64,000 bases of DNA from Caldilinea sp. CFX5. Its GTDB lineage: Bacteria > Chloroflexota > Anaerolineae > Caldilineales > Caldilineaceae. The notes under the pieces are model-generated. The model was not told the DNA's origin. It made no database searches and saw nothing but the letters and a program-made list of their open reading frames with translations. The position numbers were made by a program, and so were the translations under genes. Every line of letters begins with the position of its first letter. Position 1 is the stretch's first letter. Location: NCBI GenBank assembly GCA_021405325.1, contig QWII01000062.1:30389-94388 (forward strand), in the 5' to 3' direction. Of this stretch, positions 26,269 to 55,689 are shown in pieces.

Positions 26269-26352
26269 AGCATACCCCTTTGCCGTTAGAGCAACGTCAA
26301 TGGGCGGCCCCTTTTCGCGCTAAAACCGTCAAAAATCGTTAGAGCAACGTTA
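26269..26352 (-). promoter_or_regulatory. SARP-type operator-promoter, locus 1
   Basis: Four heptamers (written on the plus strand): GCCGTTA 26282, AACGTCA 26293, ATCGTTA 26335, AACGTTA 26346. Start spacings are 11, 42 and 11. On the minus strand the first lies 7 nt from TATGCT (26269-26274). The last repeat ends 12 bases before the start codon of the giant regulator, so binding could both activate the minus-strand gene and affect the regulator's own expression. Confidence 0.8.
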
Positions 26353-26364
26353 AAGGGTTTCCCC

Positions 26365-29300
26365 ATGTTAGAATTGAAGTTGCTCGGCAGTCCACAAATC
26401 CTTCTTAATGGACAACCGGTCACGGGTCTCTCCGCGACCAAGAGCCAGGCGCTGCTCTTTGCGCTGGCGGTGCAGGGGCGCCCACAATCGCGGCTGGCGT
26501 TGGCAGGTCTCCTCTGGCCGGATAAGCCGGAGAGCGATGCCTTGGCCAATGTGCGCCAGGCGCTCTACCATCTGCGCAATGCCCTGGCCGATTACCTGCT
26601 CATCAACCGCGCGACCGTGGCGCTCAACCCAGCGTTACCCTGTCAGATCGACGTTCTCCTCTTTGAACAGGAGTGCGTCCCCACCAACCCGCTTGCGCTA
26701 CGTCAAACAGCCGTTGACCGTTACGCCGGCGACTTTCTCGCCGGTTTCTATGTGGAAAATGCCGACCCCTTTGAAGAATGGGCGGTGGTCATGCGCGAAC
26801 GGCTACACCGCCTGGCGACCACCACCTTCTGGGAGGGACAGACCCAAGCCGCCTTCGCCCACTACGAACGCTGTCGCCAACTGCTGGCCGAGGAGCTAGG
26901 GGCCGAACCATCCGCCGAGACGGTGGCCCTGGTGGAGCAGATCCGGCGGGGGGAGATAGAAGGGAAGACAAGAAGACAGGAAGACCAGAAGGCAGAAGGG
27001 CAGAAGACAGAAGCGTCCGCCCCGTCAATCCAAAATCCAAAATCTAAAATCCAAAATCAGCATGATTGGGGCGAAATGCCGGATGTGCGCGCCTTGTGGG
27101 GGCGGGATGGCGAAGTGCAGCAGCTTGAACAGTGGCTGGTGACGGAGCACCAGCGCATTGTCACCCTTGTGGGCATGGGCGGGATGGGCAAGACGACGCT
27201 GGCTGCGACTGTGGTGACCCGGTTGGCGCCTCAGTTCACTTGGGTGCTGTGGCGTTCGTTGCTCAATGCGCCTCCCCTGTCCGACATTTTGCGCGATTGG
27301 GTGCAGGCCCTCGCCGGCTATACCCTCGCCACCTGGCCCACGCTGCTCGATGCCCAGTTGGCTTTGCTCTTTGAGCAGTTGCGTCAGCAGCGCTGCTTAC
27401 TTGTGCTGGATAATGTGGAAAGCATCCTCAGCGCGCCTGGTTCGCAGCCGAACGGCGCCTACCAGCCTGATTATGCCGACTATGGTCATTTTTTTGCGCG
27501 CCTGGGGGAAAGTGCGCACCAGAGTTCGTTGCTGCTGACCAGCCGTGAACTGCCACCGGAGGTTGTGCGCCTGGAACGACGGGGGGCGCCCGTGCGGCGG
27601 CTGCCCCTGCCCGGTTTGCCGCTGGCCGCCGGTCAACATCTATTGACCGATGCCGGTTTGATCGGCAGCGTCGCGCAACAGCGTGAACTGTTGACCCGCT
27701 ATTCGGGCAACCCGTTAGCGCTGCAACTGGTGGGCAAAACGATTCAAGATTTCTTTGCCGGCGCGATTGCCGCCTTTCTCAGCGATGAGACGCTTCTCTT
27801 TGATGATGTACGGGAGATGTTGGATCAGCAATTTGCCCGCCTGACCGGGTTGGAGCGCGAATTATTGCTCTGGCTGGCGATTGAACGGGAGCCGGTCACG
27901 CTGCCCATGCTGCAAGGTGCGCTGCTCTACGCCGGGGCCAAAAGCGCCATCCTCGACGCCTTGCTGGACTTGCAGCAGCGGTCGCTGTTGGAAAAGCTGC
28001 CTACTGGCTTCACCCTGCAAAATGTGATCATGGAGTACGCCACCACCTATCTGGTGGATGGCGTCTGCCACGAGATCGAAACGGCCACGCCCCATCTGTT
28101 ACACAGCCATGCCTTGCTCCGGGCGCAGGCCAAGGCCTATGTGCGCGAAAGCCAGGCGCGCCTGCTCCTCCACCCCATCGGTGAACGGCTGCAGAAGAAA
28201 TTGGGTACAGCAGGAATGGGCGCGCAGTTCAAAACACTGCTCGACCAGGTACGCCATGGCGATATGGCGCGAGCGAGTTATCTCGGCGGCAACATCTTAA
28301 ATCTGTTGCTCCATTTGGGTCTAGATCCTAGCTCCTATGATTTCTCGCAACTGGCGGTTTGGCAGGCCGACCTGCGCAAAGCTGATCTACCAGCGCTGAA
28401 TTTGGCGGGGGCCGATTTGCGACATACGATCTTTGCCCAACATTTTACCGGCTGTCACACGCTGGCCTTTTCTCCGCGCGGTCATCTCCTGGCAGGTGGC
28501 ATGGCCAATGGCGAAATTCACCTCTGGCAAACGGCGAATCGGCAACTGGCTACGGTGATCAAAGCACACACCACGATCATCTGGGATCTGGTTTTCAGCC
28601 CGGATGGGCAGTGGCTGGCGAGTGGTAGTAAAGATGGCAGCGTGCGCCTGTGGGATGTAGAGACGCACCAATGTCGGCAGACCTTCACCGGTCACAGCGA
28701 CTGGGTACGGACCGTGGCCTTTCATCCGACGGGACGGCTCCTGGCCTCCGGTGGTCACGACCAGACCGTGCGCTTGTGGGATGTAAACAGCGGCCGCACC
28801 CTGCATGTGCTGAACAAGCACACCGGCTGGGTCATGGGGCTGGCCTTTAGCCCGGACGGCACGCGCTTGGTGAGCGCTAGCACCGATCAGACCGTGCGGC
28901 TGTGGGATGTCCAGACCGGTCAAGAGCAGGTGGTGTTGCGCGGGCATAGCGCTTGCACCGAATCCCTCTGTTTTAGCCCGGATGGATCGATTTTGGCAAC
29001 CGCCAGCTATGACCAAACCATCTGTTTGTGGGATCTCACCACCACAGTAGAAGCCGAGGCAGAAGCCGACAGGTATGCCCTACTGCGCGTCTTGCGCGGT
29101 CACCAAGGCGCTGTCTACGGGGCCGCCTTCAGCGCCGATGGCCGGCGGTTCTTTAGCGCCGGTCACGAAGCGCTGATCTACGTTTGGGACGTCGCGACGG
29201 GGCAACGCTTATATACATTGGCCGGGCATAAGCGCGAGGTCAATGCACTGGCTGTTCATCCCACGGATGCGCTGTTGGCGACCAGTGAAACCGGCACCAG

Positions 29301-32300
29301 CACCATTTGCCTCTGGGAGAGCGAGGCAAAGCCGACCCTTACCCACATCTTCTATGGCTACCGTAACTGGGCGAATAGCGTAGCTTTTCATCCCCACCTT
29401 CCGCTGGTCGCGAGTGCCAGTCCCGCCGAGAAGGCGCATCTGTGGGATGCGCTGACAGGTCAACATTTGCAGAGCTTGCATTGTGAAAATGGGATGGGCG
29501 CTAGTCTGGCCTTTGGCAGCCGGCCAAACGAAGATCGTGCGCAACTCGCCTTCGGCAGCATGGATCACAGCGTCTGGTTGTGGCCTATCCAATACCCAGC
29601 GTCCACTATCCCCAGCCCACACGCTGCGCCCCTGGTCTTGCGCACGCCGGATGAGGTTCATTCGGTGGCCTTTAGTCCTGACGGTCGCCATGTACTAGCC
29701 GGCAGTTATGACGGCGTTATTCATCTGTGGGATGCCCAGACCGGTCAACCGTTACGCCAATTCATGATTGCCGGTGATCGGCGGCTCAAAGCGGTTGCGA
29801 TGAGTGCTGATGGGGACTTTATTGCCGCCGGTAGTCACAACTTGACCGTTGCACTTTGGCAGGTCGCCACCGGGGCCTATCGACAACTACATGGGCATAC
29901 AGAATGGGTGTGGGCCGTTGCCTTTCATCCGAGTGGCATTTTGGCCTCCGGCAGCTTTGATCGCACCGTGCGCTTATGGCATGTCCATAGCGGTGAAGTA
30001 CAACAGGTTTTGTCTCATGATGCCAGTATCGTTCAAGTGTTGGCCTTCAACCGCGATGGCAGCTTGTTGGCGGTTGGCACAGGCGATGCCATGATCTATC
30101 TGTGGGATACGCGCACCCTTGCCACTGCGCCGACCACGCCCCTGCCCCTCCTCCACAAATGGCAAGCGCATTCCGAGGTGATCCAGGGGCTGGCCTTTAG
30201 CAGCGAAGGGCAATTGCTCGCCAGCGCCAGCCTGGATGGCACGGTGAAGATATGGGATGTGTACACCCGGCAATGCCGTCACACTTTGCAAGCGCCTGGC
30301 CCCTATGCCGGCATGACCATCAGCGGTGTCACCGGGATTAGTGAAGCGCAAAAGATCGCCTTGAAAACGCTGGGAGCCATAGACGAAGCGCCTACCAATA
30401 GCCTGAGTGCGGCGCCTAGTTTGGCTATTGCGGAGCGGAGGACGATAGAACCTCCGATGGACAAAGAAGACGAGCGTTTGACAGACGCAACGCTCGTCTT
30501 GCCCGCACCTGCGCTACATAACTTGCCGGTGCAAACCACCTCGTTTATTGGGCGCACTACCGAACTTGTGGAGCTGACGCAAAAACTCAGCCACTCGGAT
30601 TGCCGGCTAATGACGCTGATTGGACTGGGGGGCATTGGCAAGACGCGACTAGCCATCGAACTGGCGCGTCAGATGATACCTATTTTTCCGAATGGCGTCT
30701 ACTTCGTAACACTGGCTGCCATCAATGATGCCGCACAGATCCCCCAAAGCATAACAACAGCCCTCGGTTTGACCGTTGCCAGTGATAGTGACCCACTGAC
30801 TCGTCTATTGGACTATCTGAAGTCACGCAAGCTGTTGCTGGTGCTAGATAACCTGGAACACCTGCGCGACACGCCCGCTTTGATCGCCACTTTCTTGCAG
30901 GCTGCTCCGATGCTGACCGTGCTTTGCACTTCACGGACGCGAATCAACCTGCAAGTCGCCTGGCAGATCGACATCACGGGATTGATGCTACCCAACGTTC
31001 CTAGCCTAGCTGCTCCATTGACGGATGAAGCTATCGCCAGTTTGAGCCAGGTCGAAGCTGTACAACTCTTTAGCGAGCGCGCCCAACGCGCTCGGCACTC
31101 CTTTGCAGTGGATGCACAGAACCTACCGGCGATTCTACGCATCTGTCACCTCGTAGGTGGGATGCCACTAGCTTTGGAACTGGCCGCGGGCTGGGTGCCG
31201 CTCTTCTCCTGCCAAGAAATCGCTGAGAAGCTGTCCCAGAATTTGGATGCACTCACTACCACTGCCAACGATGTGCCTGACCGCCAACGCAGTGTACAAT
31301 CCGTATTGGAAACTACCTGGCAGCAATTGGATGATGCGACACATTATGCCTTGATGGCGCTCGCCGTCTTTCGTGGCGGCATTCAGCAGCGCGCTACTGC
31401 GGTGGTGGCTGCCGTGACAGTGCCTATGCTCACCCATCTCATAAATCACTCGTTGCTACGTCGCCTTTCGCCCGACCGTTATGAACTGCATGAACTGCTG
31501 CGCCAGTTTGTCTATCAGAAGCTCACCCTGCTGCCGACGCTTTGGCAAAAAGCTGCCACCGATCATTCACACTTTTTTGCCCTGTTTCTGGCCGAGCGTC
31601 GTAATCTATTGAGTGGTGATGTGGCGTATAAGGCAAACGAGATTGAGCGTGAGTTTGAAAATATTTGGGTGGCGTGGCGCCACTTGCTGCAAAATCTGGC
31701 CGATCCCGCCGGTCAGAGCGAAGGGGCAGCCTTACATGATCTAGGGTTGATGGTAGATGGACTCTATCTTTTTTTCGATTTGCATGACCGCTTTCGCGAA
31801 GGGGTGGTGTGGTTCAGCGAAGCCATAGTGCAACTGGCGCAGCCAGCGCTTGCTCAGTCCAAAGCTGCAACGCTGCTCCGGGGTAAGTTGTTGAGTCGAG
31901 CGGCGCGCTTCCACTATTATCTGGATCAGATGGAGCAGACCAAGCAGTTAGCGCAACAAGCCTTGCCCATTGCTACCGAGTATGCCCAGACGAGTGAGGT
32001 TGCCTTCTGTTGGATGCAATTCGCCAATATTGCTACCTATACGGGCGATCACCCGACAGCCGTGCAACACTTTACGCATGCCCACAATCTCTATAAGCAA
32101 TGTGGTGATGCGGAGGGGATCGTGGCGGCGCTCAATGGACTCGGCGTTGCGCAGCAAAGCGCAGGGCAACTCTCACAGGCGCACCGCTATTTTCAAGAGG
32201 CGCACCAACGGGTGCTGCACCTTGATCATGCAATGTTGCTCTCCATCAGTTTGAATAATTTAGGCGAAACGCATTTGAACCGGGGCGAATATTCCCAGGC

Positions 32301-35300
32301 GCTGGCCTGTCTGCGCGAGGCGCTGCAGATCAACCAACGATTGGCGTCACATGAGGGTGCGGCTTTTGCCTTGAGAAATATGGCGGCAATCTTAACCTAT
32401 CAAGGGAAATTAACAGAGGCGCACCAGCACATTCTGCGCGCACGGGCGCTCTTTGGTGAAATGGGTCATCACCGTGGTGTTGTCTTTTCGTTGTTGCAAT
32501 TGGCGGGGATTGCCCAAGCGACGCAACATTTTGACGAGGCGGAAGGCGCGTTGACAGAAGCTGAGGCGCTCATTCAACGTTTGCAGATCAACCAATACGC
32601 CCACATGGTGACAATGGAGTGGGCACGTCTCCGCTTTGCCCAAAACGACTGGCGCCAGGCGCAGGTACTAGCGCAGAAAGTATTAAACGTTTGTCAAGCC
32701 TCTGGTATCCGTGACACGGCGGGACAGGCCCAGCTCTTGTTGGGCGAGATTGCGCTACTCCAACACGCCTGGGCTGAAGCAGCAACGCATTTTACGGCTG
32801 TTGCTGCGCTGGCGCTGGCTGATGAAGTGCCTCCGCTATTGCTCGAAGCCATCAGCGGGCAGGCCAGGCTACTGCAACAGCAAAACCAGGTTGAACCGGC
32901 TGTCACTCTTCTCTTCTTTATCGTTGCGCAAAGCGCAGTTACAGACACGGTGCGTCGGCAAGCGCAACAAGCGTTGGCGGCCTTACAACCATTGCTTGCA
33001 GCGGATGCGGCGCAACAAGCGCAACAAGCCGCGGCGAGTATGACGTTGGCGACGGCTGTAACCTTAGCACAGGACGCCATCAGCGACCGGGATCGTCCAC
33101 CAACAGATAAGAAGTCGGTCGCAACGGTGGCGACCACTGTTCCGCTGCCCCTTTCCTCCTCTATCACCCTGCCTGCAGAGGTGACAAGCTTTGTCGGGCG
33201 GGAAATGGAGAGCGCCCTGGTGCAGCAGCGGCTGGCCGACCCCGCCTGTCGCCTGCTCACCATCACCGGGATGGGGGGGGTGGGCAAGACGCGGCTGGCC
33301 TTGCGCACTGCCCATCTGCTGGCTGATCGTCTGACCAACACGCAAGCGCCCCAATTCCCGGATGGCATCTACTATGTGCCGCTGGCCGCCCTGGAGCCGC
33401 ACCCGCAATTGGAGCATCTTCTGGCGACCACCATTGCTGCTGCCCTGGGGATTTCGCTGGCCGGCGCAGCAACGCCCACCCAGCAACTGCTCCAGGCGCT
33501 GACAGAGAAAGACCTCTTGTTGATTCTGGATAACTGCGAACATTTGCCGGTGGCTGCCTTTATCAACCAACTGTTGCAGCAGACCCAGACGGTCAAAGTG
33601 CTGGTGACGTCACGCGCCCGGCTCAATGTGCGCGGCGAGCAGTTGATCCGGCTGACCGGCCTGACGACGCCCACGGCGCTGCTGCCTGCTCAGGTGACAG
33701 ACGATGATCTTTGGCGGCTCCATGATCATAGCGCCATTCGCCTCTTTGTGCAGAGCGTGCAGGCCATGCTGCCGGACTTTACGCTGGACACGACGACTGC
33801 TGCGCCCGTCGTGCAGATTTGCCAACTGTTGCATGGGTTGCCGCTGGGGCTTGAATTAGCCGCCACCTGGGCGCAACTCTTGCCGTTGCCGGAGATTGTG
33901 CAAGAAATTCGCCAAAACCTCGACTTTTTGGAAAGCGCGCAACTGGACGCGCCGGCCCATCAACGCAGCTTGCGCGCCGTCTTCAACCATTCCTGGCAAC
34001 GCTTGACGACGGCTGAACAGCACGCGTTGCGCCGCCTGACCGTCTTCACCGGCGGCTTTACGCGGGAGGCCGCCGCGCAGGTAGCAGGGGCCACGCTGCC
34101 CTTGTTGGCCCAACTCACCGACAAGTCGCTGGTGCAGCGTGTTGACCCAACAAGTAAGGTCGCCGCAAGTGTGAAGACACCCCCTCCTAACCTCCCCCAA
34201 ACTGGGGGAGGAACTGACACGGGAGCCACGGTTCCCTCCCCAGGCTGGGGAGGGTTAGGGAGGGGTGAGTCGTTACAGGTGCGTTATGAACTCCAGCCCG
34301 TGGTGCGCCAATATGCTGCGGAAGCGTTACAGCAGGCCGATGAAACCGCGGCCTATCAGGAGCGCCACGCCGCCTATATGGCGCAATTCCTGGCGGCCCA
34401 GCGCGCCGATCTGCAAGCGGCCAAACAGCAGGAAGCGTTGCGCGCCATTGATGCCGAGATTGAAAATGTACGCAGCGCCTGGCAGTGGTTGCTGGCCCAT
34501 CTGCCAACGGCCCAAAGCGGTCTGGCGCAGCTTGCCGAGCAGGTGAGCCAGAGCCTTGATAGCCTCTTTCATTTCTATGATATGCGCAGTTGGTTTCAAG
34601 AGGGGGAGACAATCTTTGGGCAACTCGCCCAGCAGTTGGCTGCCGTCATTCCGCCGCTGACCACTCCGGTCGCGGCCCACGACCCGGCGCTTGCCCTGTG
34701 GCGGCTTCAGGCCAAAGCGCAAGCGCGGCAGGGGTGGTTTGCCTGTCAACTGGGGCGCTATACTGAAAGCCGCCAGTTGTTGACCGCAAGTCTGCAGCGC
34801 TTGCAGCAACTAGAGGCCGAGGCGGACACCCTCTTTAATCTGAACTACCTGGGCGCACTCCTCCGGCATACAGGTGAATTTGCCCAAGCCACCGCCTATC
34901 TACAAACGGCGCTGCGGCTGGCGGAGCAACACCATGATCCGATGGCCATGAGCATTGCCCTCAACATTCGCGGTCAAATTGCCCTGGTGCAGGGAGAGTT
35001 GGCCGCCGCGCAGCAGTTCTGCCAACAGGCGTTGCAGATCAAACGCACCCTTGGCGACCGTTGGGGGATGACCTTTTCGTTGGGCTATTTGGGCCGGGCG
35101 GCGCAGTACGGGGGGGATTATGCTGCCGCGCAAAAACTCTTTGCCGAATGCCTGACCATTGCCCGTGAACTGGGCGACCAGCGCGGCGCAGCTTTTGCGC
35201 TTCAATGCTTGGGCGATACTGCCTACGCAGCCAGCGATCTGGCTGCTGCACAAGCACGTTACCAGGAAAGTTTGGCCCTCTACCGGGCGATCAGCAACCA

Positions 35301-38300
35301 CTATGAGAGTAGTGTCACCCTGGCGCGCTTGGGCGAGACCTGGCGCACCGCGGGGAATCGCACTCAGGCACATCAAGCGCTACGCGATGCATTGGCATTG
35401 GCCTGGTCGCTGCCCGCAACCCCCGGCCTATTGGCGGCGCTCTTAGGGCTGGCCAACCTGGCCCTGGACGCCGGTCAAGACGCGGACGCCTTACCGCCTC
35501 TCCGGTTTGTCGCCCGGCACGCCGCGAGTAGCCAGCAGCAGCGGCAGCAAGCCACTCAGTTGCTCGCCGCCCTGGGGGCGGCCGTCACGGATGACAGCAC
35601 TTGGGATCTGACCGCTTATGTACAGAGGATGTTGCACGACGGACAAGCAACGGATGTCACCACAGTCACGATCCAACCAGTCGTGGCGGCCTTACCCGCA
35701 CCCGCAGCCGCGACGGGATTGGTCGCCCGCAGCCAGGAACTGGCGCGCCTGGAAGCGGCGCTGACGCAGATGTTGGCTGGACGGGGCCAGATCTACTTTG
35801 TGACGGGGGAAGCGGGCAGCGGCAAGAGCGCGCTGATTCGCGCCTTTGTCCAGCAGAGCCAGGCCAGTCATCCCAATCTCGTTGTGGTGGGTGCACTTTG
35901 TAGCGCACAGAACGGTATCGGTGATCCCTACCTGCCTTTCCGTGAGCTGTTGAACCAGCTAGCCGGAACCGCCGGGACGACGAACGGTGCGGGCTGGTTG
36001 ACGCCGGCGGCGACGATCAAGCGTCTGTTGCCAATGGTAGCGACAGCTTTGGTGGCGCGCGGCGCCGACTTGATCGAACACTTTGTCCCTGGCGCCGCCT
36101 TGCTGGCGCACGCCGAAACGGTGGGCAATGGGGACAATGAGTGGTTGCCGCGGCTGCGCACCTGTGTGGCCCAAGCGCAAACGCACGCCATGCCGGCCGT
36201 CGCCACGTCGCGCGTTTTTGCGCAATATACGGCTGTGTTGCAGCAGATCGCCGCTAACGCCCCCTTATTGCTCGTTCTCGACGATCTGCAATGGGCCGAC
36301 GCCTCTTCCCTAAGCCTGCTCTTTCATCTGCTCCGCAATAGTGAGCAGAGCCGCATCATGCTCCTGGGCGCCTATCGTCCAGAGGAGGTAACACAGAGCA
36401 ATGGGGATCCGAAGCAAGATGGGGCGCATCCGCTGGCGACGCTGGTTCATGAATGCAAACGGAGCTTTGGCGATGTGCTGGTTGATCTGGATCGCGCCAT
36501 CGAACGCGCTGGGCGCAGCTTTGTGGATGCGTTCCTCGACAGCGAGCCAAATCGGTTGGGGGAACGCTTCCGCCAGGCCTTGTTTGCCCACACCAAAGGC
36601 CATCCGCTCTTCACTATCGAACTGCTACGTGATCTGCAAACACGGGAACATTTACAACGCGATGCCGCCGGCGATTGGGTGGAGCCAACAGCTATTGCGT
36701 GGACAAGCTTGCCTGCCCGTGTGGAAGGGGTCATTGCCGCACGTATTGACCGGCTGCCCGTTGCCTTACGCCAGTTGTTGCAAGCTGCTAGTGTTGAGGG
36801 TGAAGAATTCACTGCCGAAGTTGTGGCGCGCGTACAGGCGCTTAGCGAACGCGAGGTTGTGCGCCGGTTGGAGCACGAAGCGGAGCGCCAACATCGCCTG
36901 GTTGTCGCCCAAGACAATGCGCCCAGCGTTACACCACATGTCACGCGCTATCGCTTTCGCCATAACTTGTTCCAGCACTACATCTATCATGCGTTGGGCG
37001 TGGGTGAACGGCGCCTTTTGCACAAGGATGTGGCAGAGGCGTTGCGTGCGCTCTACGGACGGGATGACAACGCCATCACCGTGGCGCTCGCCCGCCACCT
37101 GGCGGAAGCCGGCGAAAATGAAAGAGCCGCCGCCTATGCCATCCGGGCCGGTGATAGCAGCGCACGCGCGTTTGCCTTTGCCGAAGCCCGCTTGCACTAT
37201 GAACAAGCGCTAAAGCTCCTCGCTACCCTGGCGGCGACGGTTGCCGTCTGCCGTCTGCGCATCGACATCACCTGTCGCTATGCCGATGCAGCCTTGAGTT
37301 TTGCCCCCTCAGCGCAAGTTGTGGCGCAAATCAAGGCCGCCGAACCATTGCTGGCGCTCCTGCCCGTGCCGCTGGATCAGGCGGATCGCACGCGGCGCGC
37401 CTGGTTGCAGCGCTGGCTTGGCCATTTCGCCCGCTTGCGCAATGAGACGGCAACCGCCTTTGCCTATTTGGAACCGTTGCTGGCGGAAGCGCAGGCGTTG
37501 GGCAATGATGCGTTGGGCGCCGACGTGGCCGGCATTTTAGGCTGGATCTATCTCTTTCTTGGCCGCTTTGCCGAAGCCGAACCGCTCTTGCAACAGACGC
37601 TGGCCTTTCGTGAAAAGGAGGGGAATCAACGCGAATGGGCGCAAAGCGCGAATGATTGCGGCGTGGTCATTGCCCACCGTGGGCGCTGTGCAGAGGGGAT
37701 CGCGCTGGTGCAACGCTGTCTCCAGATTGCTCAGGCTGCCAATGACGCCGAGGCCATCGCCACCAACCATTTCTATCTCGCCTGGCTCTATTTGATCGTT
37801 GGCGACTATGCCCAAGCTTTTGCGCAACTACACCTGGTGTTGGCCGTCGAGGCAGAAGCCGGTCAGGTGGGGTTGGCCGATGTGGTGGCCATGTTCCAAG
37901 GGTGGCTCCACGGTCGCCAGGGTGAGGTTGCGCTGGCGCAGGCGGCGCTGGCCCGGATGCAAAGTCAGGATAACTATTTGTACAGCGTGGTCTATCCGAT
38001 CATTCAACTGGAATTGGTTCTTCTGTCAGGGCAACCTGACCAAACGGTTGCCCTCGCCCATCAAACGCTTGCCGCCATCACTGCCAACGGCGACCGCTGG
38101 GGCGAGGGTTGTGTACAACGTCTGTGGGCGCTGGCGCTGGCGACCAGCAGCCCAACCCTCTGGACCGAAGTGGATCAACATTTTGCCGAAAGCCTGCGTG
38201 CGTTTGCTGCGGGGGGCGCCCGTCTGGAAGCAGCCCGCACCCAGGTCGCCTGGGGCAAGACGCTGGTTCAACGTGATGCGCTGCAATTGGGCGTGACCCA

Positions 38301-38706: not shown

Positions 38707-41334
38707 TCACTGATTAATGAGCGGCAGGAAGATGTGTATGGCTTGTTCATCCTCCTCAGCGCTGCGCCCTTTGCCGTTGAACTGGAAGAGTGCAACGTGA
38801 TCGACGCCATCGATCAGACGCACGATCAACTGGCGGCAGCTCCCGGCCCAGGCCTTGTCGGTCTTCCAGACATACGTGTAGGTCTGGGTAGTGGCGTCAT
38901 ATTGCAGACTACTGCTGCCCGCAGTCACCGTCTCTTCAATGTCATCGCTGCCGTTGCTGCCACCACTACTACAACTGATGTTCTGCGAGGCAGGGTAACC
39001 GCTGGCGAAGATGTTCAACCCAAAGTTGCCGCCCAGGCTGAACTTAACTGGAATGCCGGCCCCCGCGTTAACCTTGTTCATGATAGAGGGATTGTCCACC
39101 GGTTGGAAAAAACCGCCCCAGCGATAGATAACCTTATAGCTCACACTGGCGCTACCGGGGTTGCCGGCGTTATCAGTCGCCCCACTGCAAGTGGCGGTGA
39201 AGGTCCCCGTGCCATCGGTGTTGCCGCCCGTCACGCTGAGGGTGGCCTGGGTCGCTACACCGGCGAGTGCATCACTCGTGCTGCACCCCGCCACCGGCAC
39301 ACTGCCCACGGGGTAGGTGGCGCCGTTGCTTACACCAGTAACGGCAACGACCGGAGCCGTTTTGTCAATCTTCACGCTGACGACCTTGTTGAGGGTGCTT
39401 TGGTTACCCGCCAGGTCATTGATGGTGGGCGTAGTTGCGGTCACAGCGGCGCCTTCGCTGCTTAAGACTTCATTATCGGGGCAGCTTGCCACGCCTGATA
39501 CGTTGTCACTACAGGTAAAGCGGACGGTGACATCGCTGTTGTACCAGCCGTTAGCATTGGACAGCGTTGTCGCTGCTGCACTGATCGTGGGTGGCGTGGC
39601 ATCGCGTTGGATCGTCATACTCTGGCTGCTGCTGCCCCCAGCACTGGTGGCGGCGCAGGTGAAGGTGACGCCCATGGTGTCGCTGGTGACACTCTGTGTC
39701 TCACAGCCAGCCTGACTGGTGATAGGTGTCTCGGCATCCACCACACGCCAACTCACGGTGACAGTGCTGATATACCAACCAGGATTGCCTAACGTTCCCA
39801 CTACCTGTGGCGTGATGACGGGTGGCGTGCTGTCAGTGTTGAATGTCACCGTATTGTCGGTGCTGGTGCTGGCGAGATTGCCATTGCCCACAGCATCTGT
39901 GGCAACATTGGCCCCAATCGTGGCGATCAGCGTGCCGTTGCCCGCCACACCCGCCACGCTAATGGTGTATTCACTCGGCCCACCACTGACACTGATGTTG
40001 ACGCCGGACAAGTTAGCAGTTCCACTGAGGGTGACATCGCTAGCGCTAAAGTCGTTGACCGCTTCGCTAAACACAACGCTAAACAACACCGGATTGCTAT
40101 TGGTGGGATCTGCCTGCCCTGCCTGCTGGTTGATCGTGATGCTGGGAGGCGTATTGTCATCTTCCAGCCTCGCCAACTTGAGGGTTTGGTTGCTCTTGTC
40201 ATAGTAACTGATGACAGGGTTGCCGCTGCTGTCCAAACGCAGCGATGTATACTCCCCGACCTCTCCGTCACTGTCTAGGGTCTGGATGTGATTGCCGCTG
40301 GAACAGTCGGCATTGCCACAGCGCACCAGTTTGAGGTCGAAGTTGGTTACATCAAGGTAACTGATGACGGGGTTGCCGTTGCTGTCCAACACCAGCGATG
40401 TGTAGGCCCCGGTCGCTCCAGCACCGTCTACGACCTGGATGCTGTTGCCGCTGGAACAGTCGCTATTGCCACAGTGTACTAACTTGAGAATGAGGGTGGC
40501 AGCAGAAGCGTTTCTATATTCATAATAACTGATAACGGGGTTGTCGTTGCTGTCCAGTGCCAGTGATGTGTATGCCCCGACCTGCCCAATACTCTCTATC
40601 GTCTGGATGCTATTGCCGCTGGAACAGTCGGCAGTGCCACAGCGCACTAGTTTGAGGTCGCCGTCAAGATGGACATAATAACTGATAACAGGGTTGCCGC
40701 TACTATTCAGCGCTAATGATATGAAAAATCCGACTCGTCCAATGCTGTCTACGGTCTGGATGCGATTGCCACTGGAACAGTCGGCAGTGCCACAGCGCAC
40801 CAACTTGAGGTTGTGGTTACCATCGTCAGAGTAGCTGATGACAGGGATGTCGCCATTGTCCAACACCAGCGAGGTGTATGTTCCGACCCGCCCGTCACTG
40901 TCCACGGTCTGGATGCGATTGCCACTGGAACAATCGGCATTGCCACAGCGCACTAGCTTGAGGTCGTAGTTGGTTTGATCAAGGTAACTGATGACGGGGT
41001 TGCCGCTGCTATCCAGCGCCAGTGACGTGTATGCGCCAACATTTCCGTCACTGTCCACGGTCTGGATGCTGTTGCCACTGGAACAGGTGGCATTGCCACA
41101 GCGCACCAGCTTGAGATCGCCATTGACATTGTCATAATAACTGATGACGGGGTTGCCACTGCTGTCCAGCACCAGCGAGGTAAAGTGCCCGACATCGCCA
41201 GCATTGTCCACAGTTTGGAGATGCCAGATCAGGGCAGCTAGGGCAGGTTGGGCCAGCCCCCAACCCAGGCTGAGAATCAGCAGCAGCGCCAGGCTGCGGC
41301 CGATCCAGTGGGAGAAGAGTTGTTGATGCCGCAT
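38707..41334 (-). CDS. Large secreted protein with seven SGNPVISY repeats and Ig-like domains
   Basis: Product of 875 aa. Start ATG 41334 (AAGGAG upstream) and signal peptide (SLALLLILSLGWGLAQPALA). Residues about 35-390 hold seven repeats of about 50 aa, each with TSL-x-LDS-x-GNPVISY and LKLVRCG-x-A-x-CSSGN, probably a beta-propeller. Then come Ig-like domains (PPSITINQQAGQADPTNSNP; FSASDVTLSGTANLSGV), repeated DxTPP-type domains, and a PxKF-type end (PSIMNKVNAGAGIPVKFSLG). The tail is IFLPLINQ, like other exported proteins here. Paired Cys suggest extracellular disulphides. Probable surface or matrix protein. Confidence 0.85.
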   Translation of the reverse strand: MRHQQLFSHWIGRSLALLLILSLGWGLAQPALAALIWHLQTVDNAGDVGHFTSLVLDSSGNPVISYYDNVNGDLKLVRCGNATCSSGNSIQTVDSDGNVGAYTSLALDSSGNPVISYLDQTNYDLKLVRCGNADCSSGNRIQTVDSDGRVGTYTSLVLDNGDIPVISYSDDGNHNLKLVRCGTADCSSGNRIQTVDSIGRVGFFISLALNSSGNPVISYYVHLDGDLKLVRCGTADCSSGNSIQTIESIGQVGAYTSLALDSNDNPVISYYEYRNASAATLILKLVHCGNSDCSSGNSIQVVDGAGATGAYTSLVLDSNGNPVISYLDVTNFDLKLVRCGNADCSSGNHIQTLDSDGEVGEYTSLRLDSSGNPVISYYDKSNQTLKLARLEDDNTPPSITINQQAGQADPTNSNPVLFSVVFSEAVNDFSASDVTLSGTANLSGVNISVSGGPSEYTISVAGVAGNGTLIATIGANVATDAVGNGNLASTSTDNTVTFNTDSTPPVITPQVVGTLGNPGWYISTVTVSWRVVDAETPITSQAGCETQSVTSDTMGVTFTCAATSAGGSSSQSMTIQRDATPPTISAAATTLSNANGWYNSDVTVRFTCSDNVSGVASCPDNEVLSSEGAAVTATTPTINDLAGNQSTLNKVVSVKIDKTAPVVAVTGVSNGATYPVGSVPVAGCSTSDALAGVATQATLSVTGGNTDGTGTFTATCSGATDNAGNPGSASVSYKVIYRWGGFFQPVDNPSIMNKVNAGAGIPVKFSLGGNFGLNIFASGYPASQNISCSSGGSNGSDDIEETVTAGSSSLQYDATTQTYTYVWKTDKAWAGSCRQLIVRLIDGVDHVALFQFNGKGRSAEEDEQAIHIFLPLINQ

Positions 41335-41515
41335 AGATTGACTCCTTTTTGGCAGATAAACGATTAAAGCGAAAAGAAGATAAGTGCAGGTAGATTCTCC
41401 GTAGGCGTGTCGTCCAGCGTTAACGTGGCGGGTGGCGAACAAACACCCGCCACTTATCTTGTTATTGTTGTTGACAACGTTTGCGCCAAACTAGCAGCGG
41501 CAGGACGGCAAGCCG

Positions 41516-42035: not shown

Positions 42036-42119
42036 AGCATACCAGCCAAACGTTAAAGCAACGTCAGCGGATAGCGCTGTTGCCTGGCAAAATGGGCCGC
42101 TATCGTTAGCGCATCGTTA
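42036..42119 (-). promoter_or_regulatory. SARP-type operator-promoter, locus 2
   Basis: Heptamers (plus-strand form) AACGTTA 42049, AACGTCA 42060, ATCGTTA 42102 and ATCGTTA 42113, with spacings 11, 42, 11. TATGCT (minus strand, 42036-42041) lies 7 nt from the first. Here no regulator gene is adjacent; the target should be the secreted protein gene ending at 41516. Confidence 0.8.
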
Positions 42120-42131
42120 AAGCAGTCAAAT

Positions 42132-47599: not shown

Positions 47600-47697
47600 A
47601 GCTTCTCCTCTCTTGCCCCAGTTGGGCGCGTCGGTTTTCCTGGTATTTTTTGCTACCATCAGGCGTTATCCGTTGCAGGTTCAGAAAGCCGTCACCC

Positions 47698-48382: not shown

Positions 48383-48604
48383 TCAGGCCCACTGCACCGT
48401 TAGCCGAAGGGGACGGACGGCCAAGGTGATCACGATGGGCCGGACCGTCATCCGCCGGATTTTTGACCACCAAGCGCCGGCTTCTTTGTAGCAATGACCT
48501 TGCGCCAATTCGACTTGGCGGACAAAGCGTTCCTGGGTAAAGGTATGCTGTTTGTCGGTGTGCAGCACCTGGGACAGATTTTCTAAACTCAAGCCAGTTA
48601 ACAT
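48383..48604 (-). CDS. Small hypothetical protein next to the 1350-aa regulator
   Basis: Product of 73 aa from ATG 48604, with a strong GAGAGGAG site. It begins MLTGLSLENLSQVLHTDKQH, then FVRQVELAQGHCYKEAGAWW. It is not similar to the other two small proteins. It is driven by the operator-promoter at 48654-48737 with a leader of about 45 bases. Role unknown. Confidence 0.6.
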   Translation of the reverse strand: MLTGLSLENLSQVLHTDKQHTFTQERFVRQVELAQGHCYKEAGAWWSKIRRMTVRPIVITLAVRPLRLTVQWA

Positions 48605-48653
48605 CGGTTGCTCCTCTCTTGCTAACAATAACGGGGTGTTTCTGCTTGGCCCT

Positions 48654-48737
48654 AGCATAGCAGGCAAACGTTAAAGCAACGTCAGCGCATGACCCCACAC
48701 CAGCCCAAAAACAGGCAAGATCGTTAGAGCAACGTTA
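48654..48737 (-). promoter_or_regulatory. SARP-type operator-promoter, locus 3
   Basis: Heptamers (plus-strand form) AACGTTA 48667, AACGTCA 48678, ATCGTTA 48720 and AACGTTA 48731, spaced 11, 42, 11; minus-strand TATGCT at 48654-48659, 7 nt from the first. The last repeat ends 23 bases before the start of the 1350-aa regulator. Confidence 0.82.
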
Positions 48738-48760
48738 AAGCGATAGCCAAGGAGTCCCCA

Positions 48761-51700
48761 ATGTTGGAACTCAAGTTGCTGGGCAGCCCCCAAATTCTGC
48801 TGGCTGGCCGGCCCGTGAACAGTCTCGTTGCGGCCAAAAGTCAGGCATTGCTCTTCTACCTGGCGGTGACCGGTCGCCCACAATCGCGCCTGGCGCTGGC
48901 CGGCCTGCTTTGGCCCGACAAACGCGAAGCCGACGCCCTGGCCAATCTGCGGCAAGCGCTCTATCATCTCCGCAACGCCCTGCCCGACTACCTGGCAATC
49001 ACCCGCTTAACCGTGGCGCTCAACCCGGCGCAGCCCTGCCAAATTGATGCGGCGCTGTTTGAAACCGAGGTTGCTGAGACCAATCCGCCGGCTGTGCGTC
49101 AACGGGCCGTTGACGGTTACACCGGAGAATTCCTTGCCGGTTTCCAGGTGGACGAAGCCGAACCCTTTGAAGCATGGGCGGTCGTGATCCGTGAACGACT
49201 GCATCGCCTGGCGACCGAGACGCTACACCAGGTCGTCGCCCACTTTACCGCGCAATCAGAGAGCCGCCAAGGGTTGCATTACACCAACCAATGGCTGACA
49301 CTCGAACCCTGGCGTGAAGAAGCCCACCGCTACAAGATGCAACTCCTGGCCTTAGCTGGTCAACGGCAGGCCGCGTTGGACTATTATGGACAGTGCCAAC
49401 AACTGTTGCGCGAAGAGTTGAACGCCACGCCGGATGCCGAAACGGTGGCCATCTATGAGCAAATCCGCAGTGGAGCGATCGGGAGCCAGGAAGAACGACA
49501 GCAAAGCGAAGCCAACGCTGACAGCGCAAGCCAAAATCCAAAGCTTCCTGCCAGGGCAACTGTGGTGGAACCATCAAAAAGCGCAAATCAAACCGATTGG
49601 GGCGAAGCGCCGACGCCGACCGCCTTCTATGGCCGGCAAACCGAGTGTGCGCAGGTAGCCCACTGGTTGGGGCAGGATCATTGTCGCCTGGTGATGATCC
49701 TGGGGCTGGGGGGCATGGGCAAGACCGCACTGGCCGTGCAGGTGGCGCACGGCCTGGCGCACCACTTTGCGGTGGTGATCTGGCGTTCGTTGCTCAATGC
49801 GCCGCCGCTTACGGCGATTCTGGCCGGCTGGCTGCATAGCCTCGCCCCACAACCACTGACGGAAGTGCCAACCACGCTGGATGCGCAACTGGCGCTCTTG
49901 TTTGACTATTTGCGGCAGCGGCGGTGTCTGTTGATTCTTGACAACTGTGAAAGCATTCTCCAGACCGATACGCGGGCCGGCCTCTACCGTCCGGGCTACG
50001 AGGGGTATGGGCAACTGTTGCGCCGTATGGGGACCAGCGACCATCAGAGTACCCTCCTGTTGACCAGCCGCGAGCAGCCGCAGGGCGTTGAGCTATTGCC
50101 GCGCGATCCCGCCGTGGTGCAAGTGCTGCGCTTGACCGGGCTGGAAGCTGATTCCGGCCAGACGCTCCTCCAATCACGGGGCATCATCGGCGTTAACACA
50201 GAAACTGCACAGATGATCAGCCAGTACTCCGGCAACCCGCTGGCGTTGCAGATCGTGGCCCAGGTGGTCGTTGATCTCTTTGACGGCGATCTGACCGCTT
50301 TCCTCAGCCAGGAGGTGGTGATCTTTGACGACATTCGTGACGTGTTGGATCAGCAATGGGCGCGGCTAACGGCGTTGGAACGCGATCTGCTGCTCTGGCT
50401 GGCGATTGAACGTGAGCGGGTGGGGCTTGAGACGCTGCGTACCAATCTCGTCGGTGGCAGCAGCGGCTCGGCGCTGATGGAGGCCCTCCGCTCGCTCCAA
50501 CGCCGGTCGCTGATCGAGCAGCATGGGTCGACCTTCGCCTTGCAAAATGTTGTCACCGAATACCTGACCGACCGCTTGATTACTACCGTGAGTAACGAGT
50601 TGGTCAGCGGCAACTGGCACTATTTCGACAGCCATGCGCTGATCCGCACGCAGGCGAAGGAATATGTGCGCGAGAGCCAGATCCGCATCATTCTCGCCCC
50701 CCTTGCAGCCCGCCTGGTGCAGCAAGGGGGGCGCAACGAATTGGCCCACCGGCTGCGCGAAGGATTGGCGGCGCTGCGTCAACAGAGCGCACGCCGTCCT
50801 AGCTACGCCGGCGGCAATGTGCTGAATCTGTTGATCCACCTCGGCTATGACCTGCGCGGCTATGACTTTTCCAATCTCTGCGTTTGGCAAGCCAATCTCC
50901 AAAATATTCGTTTGCCGGCGGTAAACTTCGCCGACACTGATTTACGCGGTACGATCTTCACCGAGTCGTTTCGCGCTCATGATCCACTGGCGTGGAGTCC
51001 TACTGGCGATCTGCTGGCCGTCGGGACGGGAAGCGGCGAAGTGCGTTTGTGGCATGTGGCCGAACGCCGCTTGCTTGGCGTCTGTGTTGGCCACAGCGGC
51101 TTTCTCTGGACACTAGCCTTCAGTCCCGATGGTCGGTGGCTGGCCAGCGCCGGCGCGGACCAGACCGTGTCTGTTTGGGAGGTGCATACCCGTCAGTTAA
51201 CCTATCTCCTGCGCGGTCACACCCGCGGCGTGCGAGCGCTCATCTGGACAGCAGATGGGACAACGCTCATTAGTGGCAGCCTGGATCAGAGCATTTGTCT
51301 GTGGAATATCCAGAGCGGTCAACTCAGCACGACGCTGTACAACCATCAGGGGGAGGTGCGTGTGCTAGCCGTGAGTCCAAACGGCAAGCACTTGGTGAGC
51401 GGCACTTTTGACGGGCTGTTTCAACTTTGGGAGCTGCCAAGCCGCCAGATCATTTACGAGCGCCGCCATGGAGAGCACTTAACAACCATTGCTTGGGGTC
51501 CCGATGGTCGCTTGCTAGCGACTGGCGGTGGTCCATCTGTCCAGCTTTGGGATAGCGCAACCGGAACGCAATTATTCTCACTGATCGAGACAGCGCACGT
51601 CACCAGGGTCGTCGCCTTCAGTCCAGATGGGTCTACACTCGCCAGCGGCGACGGTCATGGCATACGGCTCTGGAATGTCAATACGCGCCAGAGTCGCGGC

Positions 51701-52813
51701 ATGCTCTATGGGCATATCCCTCCCGTAACAGCCGTTGCCTGGAGTCCCGACGGCGCGCACCTGGCCAGTCTGGGCGGCGGCAATATCCGGGTGTGGGATT
51801 GGCAACGCGGGCAGATCATCACGACCTTTCAAGGCTACTCTGATGAGGTCTTGAGTGTTGTCTTCAGCCCGGATGGCCGATGCGCCGCCAGCAGCCATAC
51901 TGATAACATTATCCGCATCTGGGAGACGACCACCTGGCAGGTCAGTACCATGCTCTTTGGGCACAAAAACAAGGCGCGCGACGTGCGTTTCACGCCAGAC
52001 GGCGCAACCTTGATCAGTGGCGGCTATGACCAGACCGTGCGCCTTTGGGATAGCCAAAGCGGACAGCAGCGGTGTCTGCTGGGCAGTCACAACAGTTGGA
52101 TCGGGAGTATGACGAATAGCCCGGATGGTCGCCTAATCGCAACGAGTTGCATTGATTGTACCATTTGGCTATGGGATATAGCGCGGGGTCAAGTGTTGCA
52201 TATTCTGCGCGAAGATAGCGAAATGTCGGGTCTGGCCTTTAGCCCTGACAGTCGCTGGTTGGCCGCCGGTTCTCTGGGCAGCACGATCCATCTGTGGGAT
52301 ACGAAGAGATGGCAGGCAGTGCAGACGCTCCACGGACATACGCAAGAAATCCATAGTTTGGCATTTGACCACTCAGGCCATTATCTGCTGAGTGCGAGCG
52401 CCGACGAGACGATTGGCGTGTGGGATCTCCGCACTGGTCAACGGCTGCGTACCTTGGTTGGTCATACGGCGACTGTCAATGAGTTAGCCTTGCATCCCAC
52501 TGGCGTCCTCCTGGCTAGTTGTGGCTCTGGCGATCAAACAGTGCGCCTCTGGGACTGGGCCAGCGGCACCCCCTTGGGGGTACTTCCGCAGGACGCCTGG
52601 GTGGTGACGCTGGCGTTCAGCCCGGATGGCCGAACGCTGCTTGTTGGCTGCGAGGATGGTCGGTTGCGGTTGTGGGATGTGCAGAGTGGGCAGTGTCAAC
52701 GCGTCTTCCGCGCCCCCGGTCCCTATGCCGGTATGAACATCACCGGCGTCACCGGGATTAGCGATGCGCAAAAGGCGGCGTTGAAGGCGCTAGGGGCGAT
52801 TGATGGCACTTGA
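48761..52813 (+). CDS. BTAD/NB-ARC/WD40 regulator, 1350 aa
   Basis: SARP-like STAND regulator. Residues 1-95 are an OmpR-like winged helix (MLELKLLGSPQILLAGRPVN), then a full BTAD (VIRERLHRLATETLHQVVAH to AETVAIYEQI, near 240), a linker, NB-ARC with GLGGMGKTA near 315, a helical stretch, and a WD40 array from about 727 to 1310 that ends GPYAGMNITGVTGISDAQKA. It is a paralogue of the first third of the 4016-aa protein. ATG is preceded by AAGGAG. WD40 probably senses a ligand, NB-ARC acts as switch, and the N-terminus binds DNA. The nearby heptamer operator is its likely target. Confidence 0.93.
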   Translation: MLELKLLGSPQILLAGRPVNSLVAAKSQALLFYLAVTGRPQSRLALAGLLWPDKREADALANLRQALYHLRNALPDYLAITRLTVALNPAQPCQIDAALFETEVAETNPPAVRQRAVDGYTGEFLAGFQVDEAEPFEAWAVVIRERLHRLATETLHQVVAHFTAQSESRQGLHYTNQWLTLEPWREEAHRYKMQLLALAGQRQAALDYYGQCQQLLREELNATPDAETVAIYEQIRSGAIGSQEERQQSEANADSASQNPKLPARATVVEPSKSANQTDWGEAPTPTAFYGRQTECAQVAHWLGQDHCRLVMILGLGGMGKTALAVQVAHGLAHHFAVVIWRSLLNAPPLTAILAGWLHSLAPQPLTEVPTTLDAQLALLFDYLRQRRCLLILDNCESILQTDTRAGLYRPGYEGYGQLLRRMGTSDHQSTLLLTSREQPQGVELLPRDPAVVQVLRLTGLEADSGQTLLQSRGIIGVNTETAQMISQYSGNPLALQIVAQVVVDLFDGDLTAFLSQEVVIFDDIRDVLDQQWARLTALERDLLLWLAIERERVGLETLRTNLVGGSSGSALMEALRSLQRRSLIEQHGSTFALQNVVTEYLTDRLITTVSNELVSGNWHYFDSHALIRTQAKEYVRESQIRIILAPLAARLVQQGGRNELAHRLREGLAALRQQSARRPSYAGGNVLNLLIHLGYDLRGYDFSNLCVWQANLQNIRLPAVNFADTDLRGTIFTESFRAHDPLAWSPTGDLLAVGTGSGEVRLWHVAERRLLGVCVGHSGFLWTLAFSPDGRWLASAGADQTVSVWEVHTRQLTYLLRGHTRGVRALIWTADGTTLISGSLDQSICLWNIQSGQLSTTLYNHQGEVRVLAVSPNGKHLVSGTFDGLFQLWELPSRQIIYERRHGEHLTTIAWGPDGRLLATGGGPSVQLWDSATGTQLFSLIETAHVTRVVAFSPDGSTLASGDGHGIRLWNVNTRQSRGMLYGHIPPVTAVAWSPDGAHLASLGGGNIRVWDWQRGQIITTFQGYSDEVLSVVFSPDGRCAASSHTDNIIRIWETTTWQVSTMLFGHKNKARDVRFTPDGATLISGGYDQTVRLWDSQSGQQRCLLGSHNSWIGSMTNSPDGRLIATSCIDCTIWLWDIARGQVLHILREDSEMSGLAFSPDSRWLAAGSLGSTIHLWDTKRWQAVQTLHGHTQEIHSLAFDHSGHYLLSASADETIGVWDLRTGQRLRTLVGHTATVNELALHPTGVLLASCGSGDQTVRLWDWASGTPLGVLPQDAWVVTLAFSPDGRTLLVGCEDGRLRLWDVQSGQCQRVFRAPGPYAGMNITGVTGISDAQKAALKALGAIDGT

Positions 52814-53865: not shown

Positions 53866-55128
53866 TTATTTTTGCACCGCCGCCCACCCCACGGCCCCCA
53901 CGCCCGCCGCCGTCAGCACAGCCGCCACCGGGAAAATGGCAAAGAGGCTTTGCTGGGTGATCAGTGCGCCCAACCCCGGCCCCAGCATATTGGCCAAGAG
54001 CAGGGGCAGATAGGCAAAACACATGATCCGCCCGCGCATGGCCGGCGCAATCGCATCGGCCAGCACGGTGAAGGAGAGGGCAAAGACGCCCGTGGTCAAC
54101 CCATTGAGGATCGCCCAGGCCACGCCAAAGCTCCACAAGGTGGCCATGAACGCCGGCAGCGGCCAGAGCAGCACCGACACGGTCGCGGCAATAATCAACA
54201 CCCGCCAGCAGCCATAGCGATCCCCCAATGCCCCCAGCAGCGGGGCGACCAGCATCGCCAGCAATCCGCCGGCGCCCACCACCAGCCCCACCGTAAAGCC
54301 CAGCCGCGCCCCGTGATAGTAGGTCGGCACGATCAACGGAATGTAGGTGGTGGCCAACATCCAGCCGGTAAAGAGCAGAAAGAGCGCCGGAAAGAGCGTG
54401 CGCAAGCGGGGGGATTGCCCGATATGGCGCAACGACTCTACGGCCATCTGCCAGAGCGAGTCTGTCACCGGCGTGGGGCGGTTGCCCTGGTAGCCCCAAA
54501 GCAGACCGGCGATACAGGCCGTGAGAATGAAGCCATCGAGCAGCAACAACGTGCGGATGCCCCAAGCGTCGATCACCGGGCCGCCCAGGATGGGGCCAAG
54601 GAAGGAGCCGATGGGGCCGGCGCCATTCATAATGGCAAAGGCCACGCCCAGCCGCCGGGCCGGGGTGCGTTCGGCCAGCGCCGCCATCATCAACCCGGTG
54701 CTGCCCAGGGCAAAGCCGGTCGCCGCCCGCCCCAGCACCACCAGCCAGGGCGAAGTAGCGATCAAGGTCAACCCCGCCCCGACCAGCAGCGCCACATAGG
54801 CGCGCACGATCAACGGCTTGTGGCCATAGCGGTCGGCCAGCGCACCCCAAAAGGGGACAAAGGGGATGCCGAGCAGACCGCCGAAGACGGCAATCCGTCC
54901 CAACCACAGGGGAACTTCCCCCGGCGCCACACCAAGCAGCGGCAGATAGAGCGGCGTAAAGGCCAGCAACTGTCCCCAGAAGACCGACTCAAAAAAGCCG
55001 GCTACGGTAAAGAGGGTCAACAGCCAGAGCCAGTTGGTCGTGATCGCTAACCTGTTGACGGGGGCAGTACGCCGCGCCCACCAACGCATGAGAAGCTGTT
55101 GTCGGATTTTGTACACCACGGGCGTCAT
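53866..55128 (-). CDS. MFS transporter
   Basis: Major facilitator protein of about 420 aa with 12 predicted helices: FVPFWGALADRYGHKPLIVR (motif A), GRAATGFALGSTGLMMAALA, and a second-half motif LLGALGDRYGCWRVLIIAAT. It is a probable multidrug-type exporter; substrate unknown. AAGGAG touches the ATG at 55128, so the GTG at 55119 or 55116 may be the true start. It lies 27 bases after the small gene and is likely transcribed from the operator-promoter at 55.4 kb. Confidence 0.9.
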   Translation of the reverse strand: MTPVVYKIRQQLLMRWWARRTAPVNRLAITTNWLWLLTLFTVAGFFESVFWGQLLAFTPLYLPLLGVAPGEVPLWLGRIAVFGGLLGIPFVPFWGALADRYGHKPLIVRAYVALLVGAGLTLIATSPWLVVLGRAATGFALGSTGLMMAALAERTPARRLGVAFAIMNGAGPIGSFLGPILGGPVIDAWGIRTLLLLDGFILTACIAGLLWGYQGNRPTPVTDSLWQMAVESLRHIGQSPRLRTLFPALFLLFTGWMLATTYIPLIVPTYYHGARLGFTVGLVVGAGGLLAMLVAPLLGALGDRYGCWRVLIIAATVSVLLWPLPAFMATLWSFGVAWAILNGLTTGVFALSFTVLADAIAPAMRGRIMCFAYLPLLLANMLGPGLGALITQQSLFAIFPVAAVLTAAGVGAVGWAAVQK

Positions 55129-55155
55129 CTCCTTGTGTCGATAAGCTTGATTTGG

Positions 55156-55371
55156 TCAGGCAATCGTTGCTGGCGCCGCCGGTGCGGGAACAACGTTACT
55201 TTGCCCTTGTAAACGCTGCCCCCAAACGATCAACTGTTGCCCGATCCAGGCGCTGACGGGATGCGGCTGCGACGCGACCAGGGATTGGGTCAGGCGCTGT
55301 TGTTCAGCGTTGGTCAGCAACAAAGCGCGCTGGGCTTCTGTGCGAGTGACAATCTCATCATAATTCAACAT
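55156..55371 (-). CDS. Small protein paralogous to the 25.9-kb one
   Basis: Protein of 71 aa (MLNYDEIVTRTEAQRALLLT, AEQQRLTQSLVASQPHPVSA, IGQQLIVWGQRL). No membrane span or known domain; probably helical. The same gene-next-to-MFS arrangement occurs at 25.5-26 kb. Excellent AAAGGAGG site. Leader of about 55 bases from the TATGCT promoter. Confidence 0.72.
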   Translation of the reverse strand: MLNYDEIVTRTEAQRALLLTNAEQQRLTQSLVASQPHPVSAWIGQQLIVWGQRLQGQSNVVPAPAAPATIA

Positions 55372-55430
55372 AGCGCCTCCTTTAGGCTGGTAGAACGAGA
55401 ATCTTTGTTTGGATTACTTCGGCTGGCTCC

Positions 55431-55514
55431 AGCATACCAAGCGAACGTTAAAGCAACGTCAGCGCCTAGCCGCTTAACCATCCCCAAATAAGCAAGATCG
55501 TTAGAGCAACGTTA
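55431..55514 (-). promoter_or_regulatory. SARP-type operator-promoter, locus 4
   Basis: Heptamers (plus-strand form) AACGTTA 55444, AACGTCA 55455, ATCGTTA 55497 and AACGTTA 55508, spaced 11, 42, 11; minus-strand TATGCT at 55431-55436, 7 nt from the first. The adjacent regulator here is XRE-type, so control by a BTAD protein would act from another locus. Confidence 0.82.
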
Positions 55515-55683: not shown

Positions 55684-55689
55684 CTGGCT

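Follow-up and report, generated by a model that had tools for sequence, protein, structure and literature searches.

We analysed a stretch of 64,000 nucleotides from Caldilinea sp. CFX5 (contig QWII01000062.1, positions 30,389 to 94,388), which we call the window. It contains two large plus-strand genes for regulators. The first (26365..38415) encodes a protein of 4,016 amino acids that, according to Pfam and an alignment of its N terminus, begins with SARP/BTAD, NB-ARC and WD40 parts and continues with additional NB-ARC, NACHT, AAA, and TPR modules; all of these are fused in a single open reading frame. The second (48761..52813) encodes a protein of 1,350 amino acids with a SARP/BTAD part, an ATPase region and a WD40 propeller (as found by Pfam, an AF2 model, and Foldseek). 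The two regulators are paralogues and are 79% identical over their first 110 amino acids.

Both proteins have the N-terminal arrangement of a SARP protein, that is, an OmpR-type winged helix followed by a BTAD domain. As in the large SARPs, a NOD/ATPase region comes after the SARP domain (NB-ARC in the 26.4-kb protein; for the 48.8-kb protein, a precomputed match to PF05729). The 48.8-kb regulator matches PF03704 with 64.5 bits (the cut-off is 22.1), and the AF2 model of its N-terminal 240 residues has a pLDDT of 96.7. Foldseek matched this model to AfsR (8k60, E = 8.7e-11) and EmbR (2fez, E = 1.3e-8). Searching the PDB with phmmer gave no match at E ≤ 0.01 for the one regulator used as query, and profile searches against the PDB did find matches. 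The NCBIfam equivalog model for AfsR gives the two regulators 34 and 46 bits, which is far below its cut-off of 1,430, so we do not call them AfsR orthologues. Among the proteins closest to the 48.8-kb regulator, those with a named source come from Caldilineaceae MAGs, and databases already annotate relatives as “DNA-binding SARP family transcriptional activator.”

The window also contains four putative promoters on the minus strand. Each one has two pairs of 11-bp direct repeats, exactly 53 bp apart, and the proximal pair is followed by seven nucleotides and a TATGCT box. Read in the direction of transcription, the layout is pair, 33 bp, pair, N7, and TATGCT, with pairs of the type TRACG(T/A)TGCNYTAACG, and the starts of the heptamers are spaced by 11, 42, and 11 in all four sites. 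(On the plus strand, the -10 box reads AGCATA and starts at 26269, 42036, 48654, and 55431.) At site 1, the -10 box (26269..26274) is preceded by a proximal pair at 26282..26301, whose second unit is degenerate (ACGGC), and by a distal pair at 26335..26354, which ends 10 nt before the start codon of the 26.4-kb BTAD gene. Site 2 has its -10 box at 42036..42041, its proximal pair at 42049..42068, and its distal pair at 42102..42121. Site 3 consists of a -10 box at 48654..48659, a proximal pair at 48667..48686, and a distal pair at 48720..48739, and the other BTAD gene starts 21 nt beyond the end of the distal pair. The corresponding features of site 4 are at 55431..55436, 55444..55463, and 55497..55516. 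A preliminary description of this DNA had reported four sites with these positions and spacings, two of them adjoining BTAD regulators and all with 11-bp repeats about 8 bp from the -10 box, as is known for SARPs; all of this is borne out by the sequence.

These patterns are far more frequent than would be expected by chance. If three mismatches are allowed, one of the pairs matches the window 7 times (0.02 expected, from shuffles) and the other 8 times (0.21 expected). A weight matrix built from the eight 20-mers scores the same eight, which are its own training set, at 27–32 bits, and the next match has just 13.5 bits; given this fall, there is no clear fifth site in the window.

The sites were originally described as identical, which is true of the -10 boxes but not of the rest: between sites, the repeat pairs are 75–100% identical, compared with 36–58% for the DNA between the pairs, 26–56% for the leader, and 18–28% for the upstream DNA. 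The proximal pair is the same in three sites and is 75% identical at 26.3 kb, while the distal pairs are 85–100% identical. The contrast between the repeats and the DNA between them agrees with the earlier statement that the spacing is kept while the intervening bases differ. It also bears on the idea that the four sites have no regulatory role and are copies that arose by duplication not long ago or spread as a mobile repeat. The regulators are indeed paralogous, and the leaders at 42.0 and 55.4 kb share 56% identity, but the repeats are much more alike than the DNA between and upstream of them, and the same repeat-to-box geometry is found in relatives that have different repeat sequences (see below). 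We therefore regard copying without function as scarcely credible.

All four sites face small minus-strand genes, as had been claimed, namely open reading frames of 72, 124, 73, and 71 amino acids with Shine-Dalgarno sequences. Site 1 has a long leader (about 300 nt) ahead of the 72-amino-acid gene (25745..25963). Site 2 precedes the 124-amino-acid open reading frame (41516..41890), which has a signal-peptide-like start (a hydrophobic N terminus, by eye). A possible operon partner beyond it encodes 911 amino acids (38707..41442, minus strand) with weak Ig-like and BNR matches that fall below the Pfam cut-off. Site 3 precedes the 73-amino-acid open reading frame (48383..48604; its Shine-Dalgarno sequence is GAGGAG), and site 4 precedes the 71-amino-acid gene (55156..55371), which is probably in an operon with the MFS transporter gene that follows it (53866..55128, minus strand; Pfam MFS_1). 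Farther downstream of site 3, a minus-strand gene (46331–47659) encodes a 442-amino-acid protein with DUF4360 and cadherin-like repeats, which is a possible surface target. On the other side of site 4, an HTH-NACHT-TPR STAND gene (55672–58197) points away from the site, and in the DNA between them (55517–55671), by eye, the gene has a TATAAT of its own and there is a hairpin.

The 72- and 71-amino-acid products are homologous (35% identity) and belong to a family that we refer to by its MLNYDEI motif. For the 71-amino-acid protein, we ran a homologue search, an alignment, and a structure prediction, which gave a two-helix model (pLDDT 77, pTM 0.37). The search listed 16 proteins, including the query itself. 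The longest contigs associated with four of these 16 match in length those of BTAD proteins related to the 48.8-kb regulator (50,153; 54,068 twice; and 139,700), which suggests that they may lie on the same contigs. Pfam gave no match above its cut-off for three of the small proteins of the window (all but the 73-amino-acid one; one was searched as a 116-amino-acid fragment). In further sets of genomes, the 71-amino-acid protein had matches in 0 of 56, 0 of 25, and 4 of 393, and these four were weak (E = 1.7e-4 to 7.4e-4), with no repeat promoter in their flanks by our script's criterion. Weak MLNYDEI relatives at three loci (L210–L212) are beside open reading frames that look, by eye, like DinB, an ABC-2 transporter, and an arsenic methyltransferase.

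We used the first 240 residues of the regulator in a class-level search of 396 sampled genomes. There were matches at E ≤ 1e-50 in 32 genomes, and 30 of these had a total of 322 matches at E ≤ 1e-20. Our locus set has 152 loci from 32 genomes: 150 of the 322 matches, chosen as the best-scoring among those listed, and two from two further genomes. Choosing the best-scoring loci biases the set towards close relatives of the 48.8-kb regulator. Sufficient upstream DNA was available for 150 of the 152 loci, and 143 were left after similar upstream regions were removed. We scanned these for pairs of 7-mer units (at least 6/7 identical) together with a TANNNT hexamer.

On the strand that is divergent from the BTAD gene, pairs with a spacing of 11 were found at 56, 59, 60, and 56 of the 143 loci for gaps to the hexamer of 7, 8, 9, and 10 (about 40% of loci). 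With a gap of 7 and any other spacing from 5 to 21, the count was 0–6. At the window sites (N7) as well as in relatives (peak at 7–10), the 11-bp direct repeats have their 3' unit about 8 bp before the -10 box, overlapping the -35 region. With a fixed criterion, 67 of the 143 divergent strands pass and 76 fail, as compared to a mean of 3.05 (maximum 7) across 20 Markov shuffles. The gene strands also show an excess (21 of 143 pass, versus about 3 in shuffles), which may partly reflect the same repeats in reverse reading. Some of the 66 operators that we called in relatives are probably false, mainly AT-rich ones. Tandem extra copies of the repeat are present at -11 in 17 of the 66 and at -22 in 6, and none of the 66 has a second pair at -53, so the two-pair layout is so far the window's own.

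The strand preference is relevant to another explanation, in which the main function of the sites is repression or autoregulation of the BTAD genes and not activation of the divergent genes. The closeness of the distal pairs to the BTAD start codons at 26.3 and 48.7 kb would fit this explanation. On the gene strand, however, pairs with a spacing of 11 occur at just 5–12 of the 143 loci with no preferred gap, so the preferred distance to a -10 box belongs to the divergent strand; furthermore, the layout is the same at 42.0 and 55.4 kb, where no BTAD gene is adjacent. We consider it very unlikely that control of the BTAD genes is the main role. A mixed function, with regulation of the BTAD genes as well as activation of the divergent genes, is possible.

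Two ideas about the targets at relatives' loci were set aside. Signal-peptide-like open reading frames, as identified by a crude rule, are present at 28 of 49 operator loci and 18 of 39 others, so secreted targets are not clearly enriched. An uncharacterised small family (YLLRCWQE ... WRFSLEDPHTGERRGFASLEALMAFL) is divergent from 48 of the 143 BTAD loci (L012–L163), and two of its members had no match in Pfam. It is enriched (31 of 66 operator loci versus 17 of 77 others) but is not universal, so it is not a constant target, and by eye the small genes of the window are unlike it.

The preliminary description had proposed a check, namely enrichment of the spaced motif near BTAD genes in related genomes, and this is what we observed. 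The pattern TNNACGNT-N3-TNNACGNT-N7-TANNNT has 47 matches in 30 genomes (21 of the 30 have a match), versus 3 for the reversed pattern and 2 for a control in which the repeat spacing is widened by 2, to 13 (3 if this control is reversed). Of the 47 matches, 19 are divergent from a BTAD gene and within 400 bp of it. About 0.02 would be expected from 322 genes in 176.4 Mb, which is somewhat low because the 322 genes were counted at E ≤ 1e-20 and the neighbours were detected at 1e-6. The 28 matches without a detected divergent BTAD gene precede varied genes, as do the window sites at 42.0 and 55.4 kb, or no open reading frame listed by the script.

We found no close relative of the window in the genomes searched, and the motif pattern had no match in the six genomes of the order that includes genome G361. 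The exact dual-pair pattern matched five loci in the genome contigs, which are probably chance or tandem-repeat matches: one is from Thermaceae, and four are from one Chloroflexi MAG with 11-bp TGACGC repeats. By eye, we rejected all five as relatives. In that MAG (CF_72, L002–L005), arrays of TGACGC units with an 11-bp period occur on several contigs, and in L005, TGACG recurs at 11-bp steps 20 times in succession. These arrays resemble repeated SARP boxes and may be an unrelated repeat.

Across the 66 loci and the two window regulators, operator similarity is correlated with similarity of the DNA-binding domain (Mantel r = 0.32, 0 of 2,000 permutations). With all pairs included, most flanks also track domain similarity, as shared descent would lead one to expect. 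Among pairs with under 55% domain identity, the association holds for both repeat units (0 of 500 permutations for unit 1 and 4 of 500 for unit 2) and is weak for N7 (7 of 500); there is none for the -10 box, downstream, or upstream DNA (121 to 245 of 500).

The residue that covaries most strongly with the repeats is residue 64, in the recognition helix (z = 9.5 and 9.3 with repeat positions 7 and 6 across 47 less related loci; the best other residue has z = 4.9). Where residue 64 is arginine, CG is found at positions 6–7 in at least one unit at 54 of 57 loci (two of these are the window's) and in both units at 48 of 57. Where it is serine or threonine, this is so for 0 of 11 (Fisher P = 2.4e-10, uncorrected for kinship). 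The three arginine loci without CG are perhaps false operator calls. With a strict repeat criterion and CG counted anywhere in the units, it is present for 37 of 38 arginine, 3 of 4 threonine, and 0 of 1 serine loci; as CG is still present, at other positions, in most threonine loci, threonine seems to shift it and not to abolish it. On a tree of residues 101–240 (the BTAD part, which leaves out residue 64) with 68 tips, the residue class has to change 5 times and the CG class 8 times. For example, two sister regulators from one genome have NLS with ATG repeats (L085) and NLR with ACG repeats (L105).

Covariation also helps to judge whether the repeats are instead boxes of another response regulator of the OmpR/PhoB type, with BTAD genes as incidental neighbours. 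Such regulators also use 11-bp direct repeats that overlap the -35 region. A review reports that the AfsR site on afsS is recognised by PhoP as well, so boxes of different regulators can resemble one another, and the 28 genome-wide matches without a detected BTAD neighbour would suit this explanation as well. But the repeats vary from locus to locus along with the recognition helix of the adjacent BTAD protein, and the 19 matches that adjoin BTAD genes are many more than expected. Recognition by another such regulator seems very unlikely to us.

Known systems offer several parallels for a SARP-type arrangement. EmbR of Mycobacterium tuberculosis contains an FHA domain. According to Foldseek and a profile alignment (PDB 2fez and 2ff4), it shares the winged-helix and BTAD fold, but the window regulators have ATPase and WD40 parts at the position of the FHA domain. 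The target of AfsR, afsS, is a small gene, as are the predicted targets in the window, which have no known relation to AfsS.

AfsR of Streptomyces coelicolor is, like the window regulators, a large SARP with SARP, NOD, and TPR parts, and its N-terminal fold matches. The following details are from the cryo-EM paper on AfsR (PMC10936776). The AfsR site on afsS comprises two 11-bp repeats that overlap the -35 region, as here, and AfsR binds as a side-by-side dimer that adapts sigma region 4. The afs box ends at -19. If the -10 element is at -12 to -7, as we read the description of the scaffold, then 6 bp separate it from the end of the 11-bp unit, as at the window sites, and with this shared register, the operator geometry is that of AfsR. 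Our profile alignment places R64 on R87 of AfsR (chain numbers as printed exceed those of the paper by 20). According to the paper, R87 contacts the phosphates of T-35 to G-33, which are repeat positions 5–7 in our register, and R92 contacts T-38, which has T-27 as its partner, and these correspond to repeat position 2 (T in 42/66 and 41/66 of the relatives' operators). The system in the window differs from AfsR in being from Chloroflexota, in its WD40 sensor parts, in the ACG core of the repeats, and in having two pairs 53 bp apart.

PimR, a SARP-LAL regulator, provides another partial parallel, according to a paper on its operators (PMC5930380). On pimM, it recognises heptameric direct repeats with 4-bp spacers, its binding requires at least two repeats, and the promoter has two separate operators, which resembles the two-pair layout of the window. 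Unlike the window sites, the main PimR operator lies clear of the -35 region and contains three repeats, and the second has a 3-bp spacer; the LAL-type C-terminal half of PimR is another difference.

Overall, we predict from the DNA that the two large regulators of the window act on the four sites as activator promoters of the SARP type, with a probability of roughly 85%. What we computed for this prediction is the sequence geometry, the presence of the same repeat-to-box arrangement in relatives, the covariation with the recognition helix, and the predicted fold. The results support the earlier interpretation of these genes as a SARP-type regulon in Chloroflexota, in which binding and activation are inferred steps. 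The OmpR-like winged helices and BTAD domains of the 26.4- and 48.8-kb regulators would bind the 11-bp repeats side by side. By analogy with AfsR, the bound DNA would stand in for a -35 box, and RNA polymerase would be recruited to the TATGCT box, which lies 7 bp farther downstream. The small minus-strand genes would thereby be expressed, probably along with the transport or surface genes that follow them. As in AfsR, a signal presumably controls activation through the ATPase and WD40/TPR parts. As 53 bp is about five helical turns, the distal pair probably seats a second dimer on the same face of the DNA. It may make recruitment stronger, or it may additionally act on the BTAD gene at 26.3 and 48.7 kb.

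A 2024 review (PMC10972967) describes SARPs as exclusive to actinobacteria. In Chloroflexota, we find that the fold, the repeat spacing, and the -10 register occur together, with repeats that covary with the regulator. Among the open-licence papers in PubMed Central that our searches listed, none describes operators of Chloroflexota SARP/BTAD proteins. The proteins themselves are already annotated in databases as SARP family members.

More tentatively, Chloroflexota genomes may each contain many private, fast-diversifying pairs of SARP regulators and operators, with specificity set largely by residue 64 (arginine versus serine or threonine). In the window, two paralogous giant STAND-SARPs might share four two-pair operators, and the five-turn spacing might let an NB-ARC oligomer put four DNA-binding heads on one face. 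If the SARP-type reading is correct, many orphan giant STAND regulators would have a cognate site that can be read from the genome, their target genes would be predictable, and a single residue could be named for a swap of specificity.
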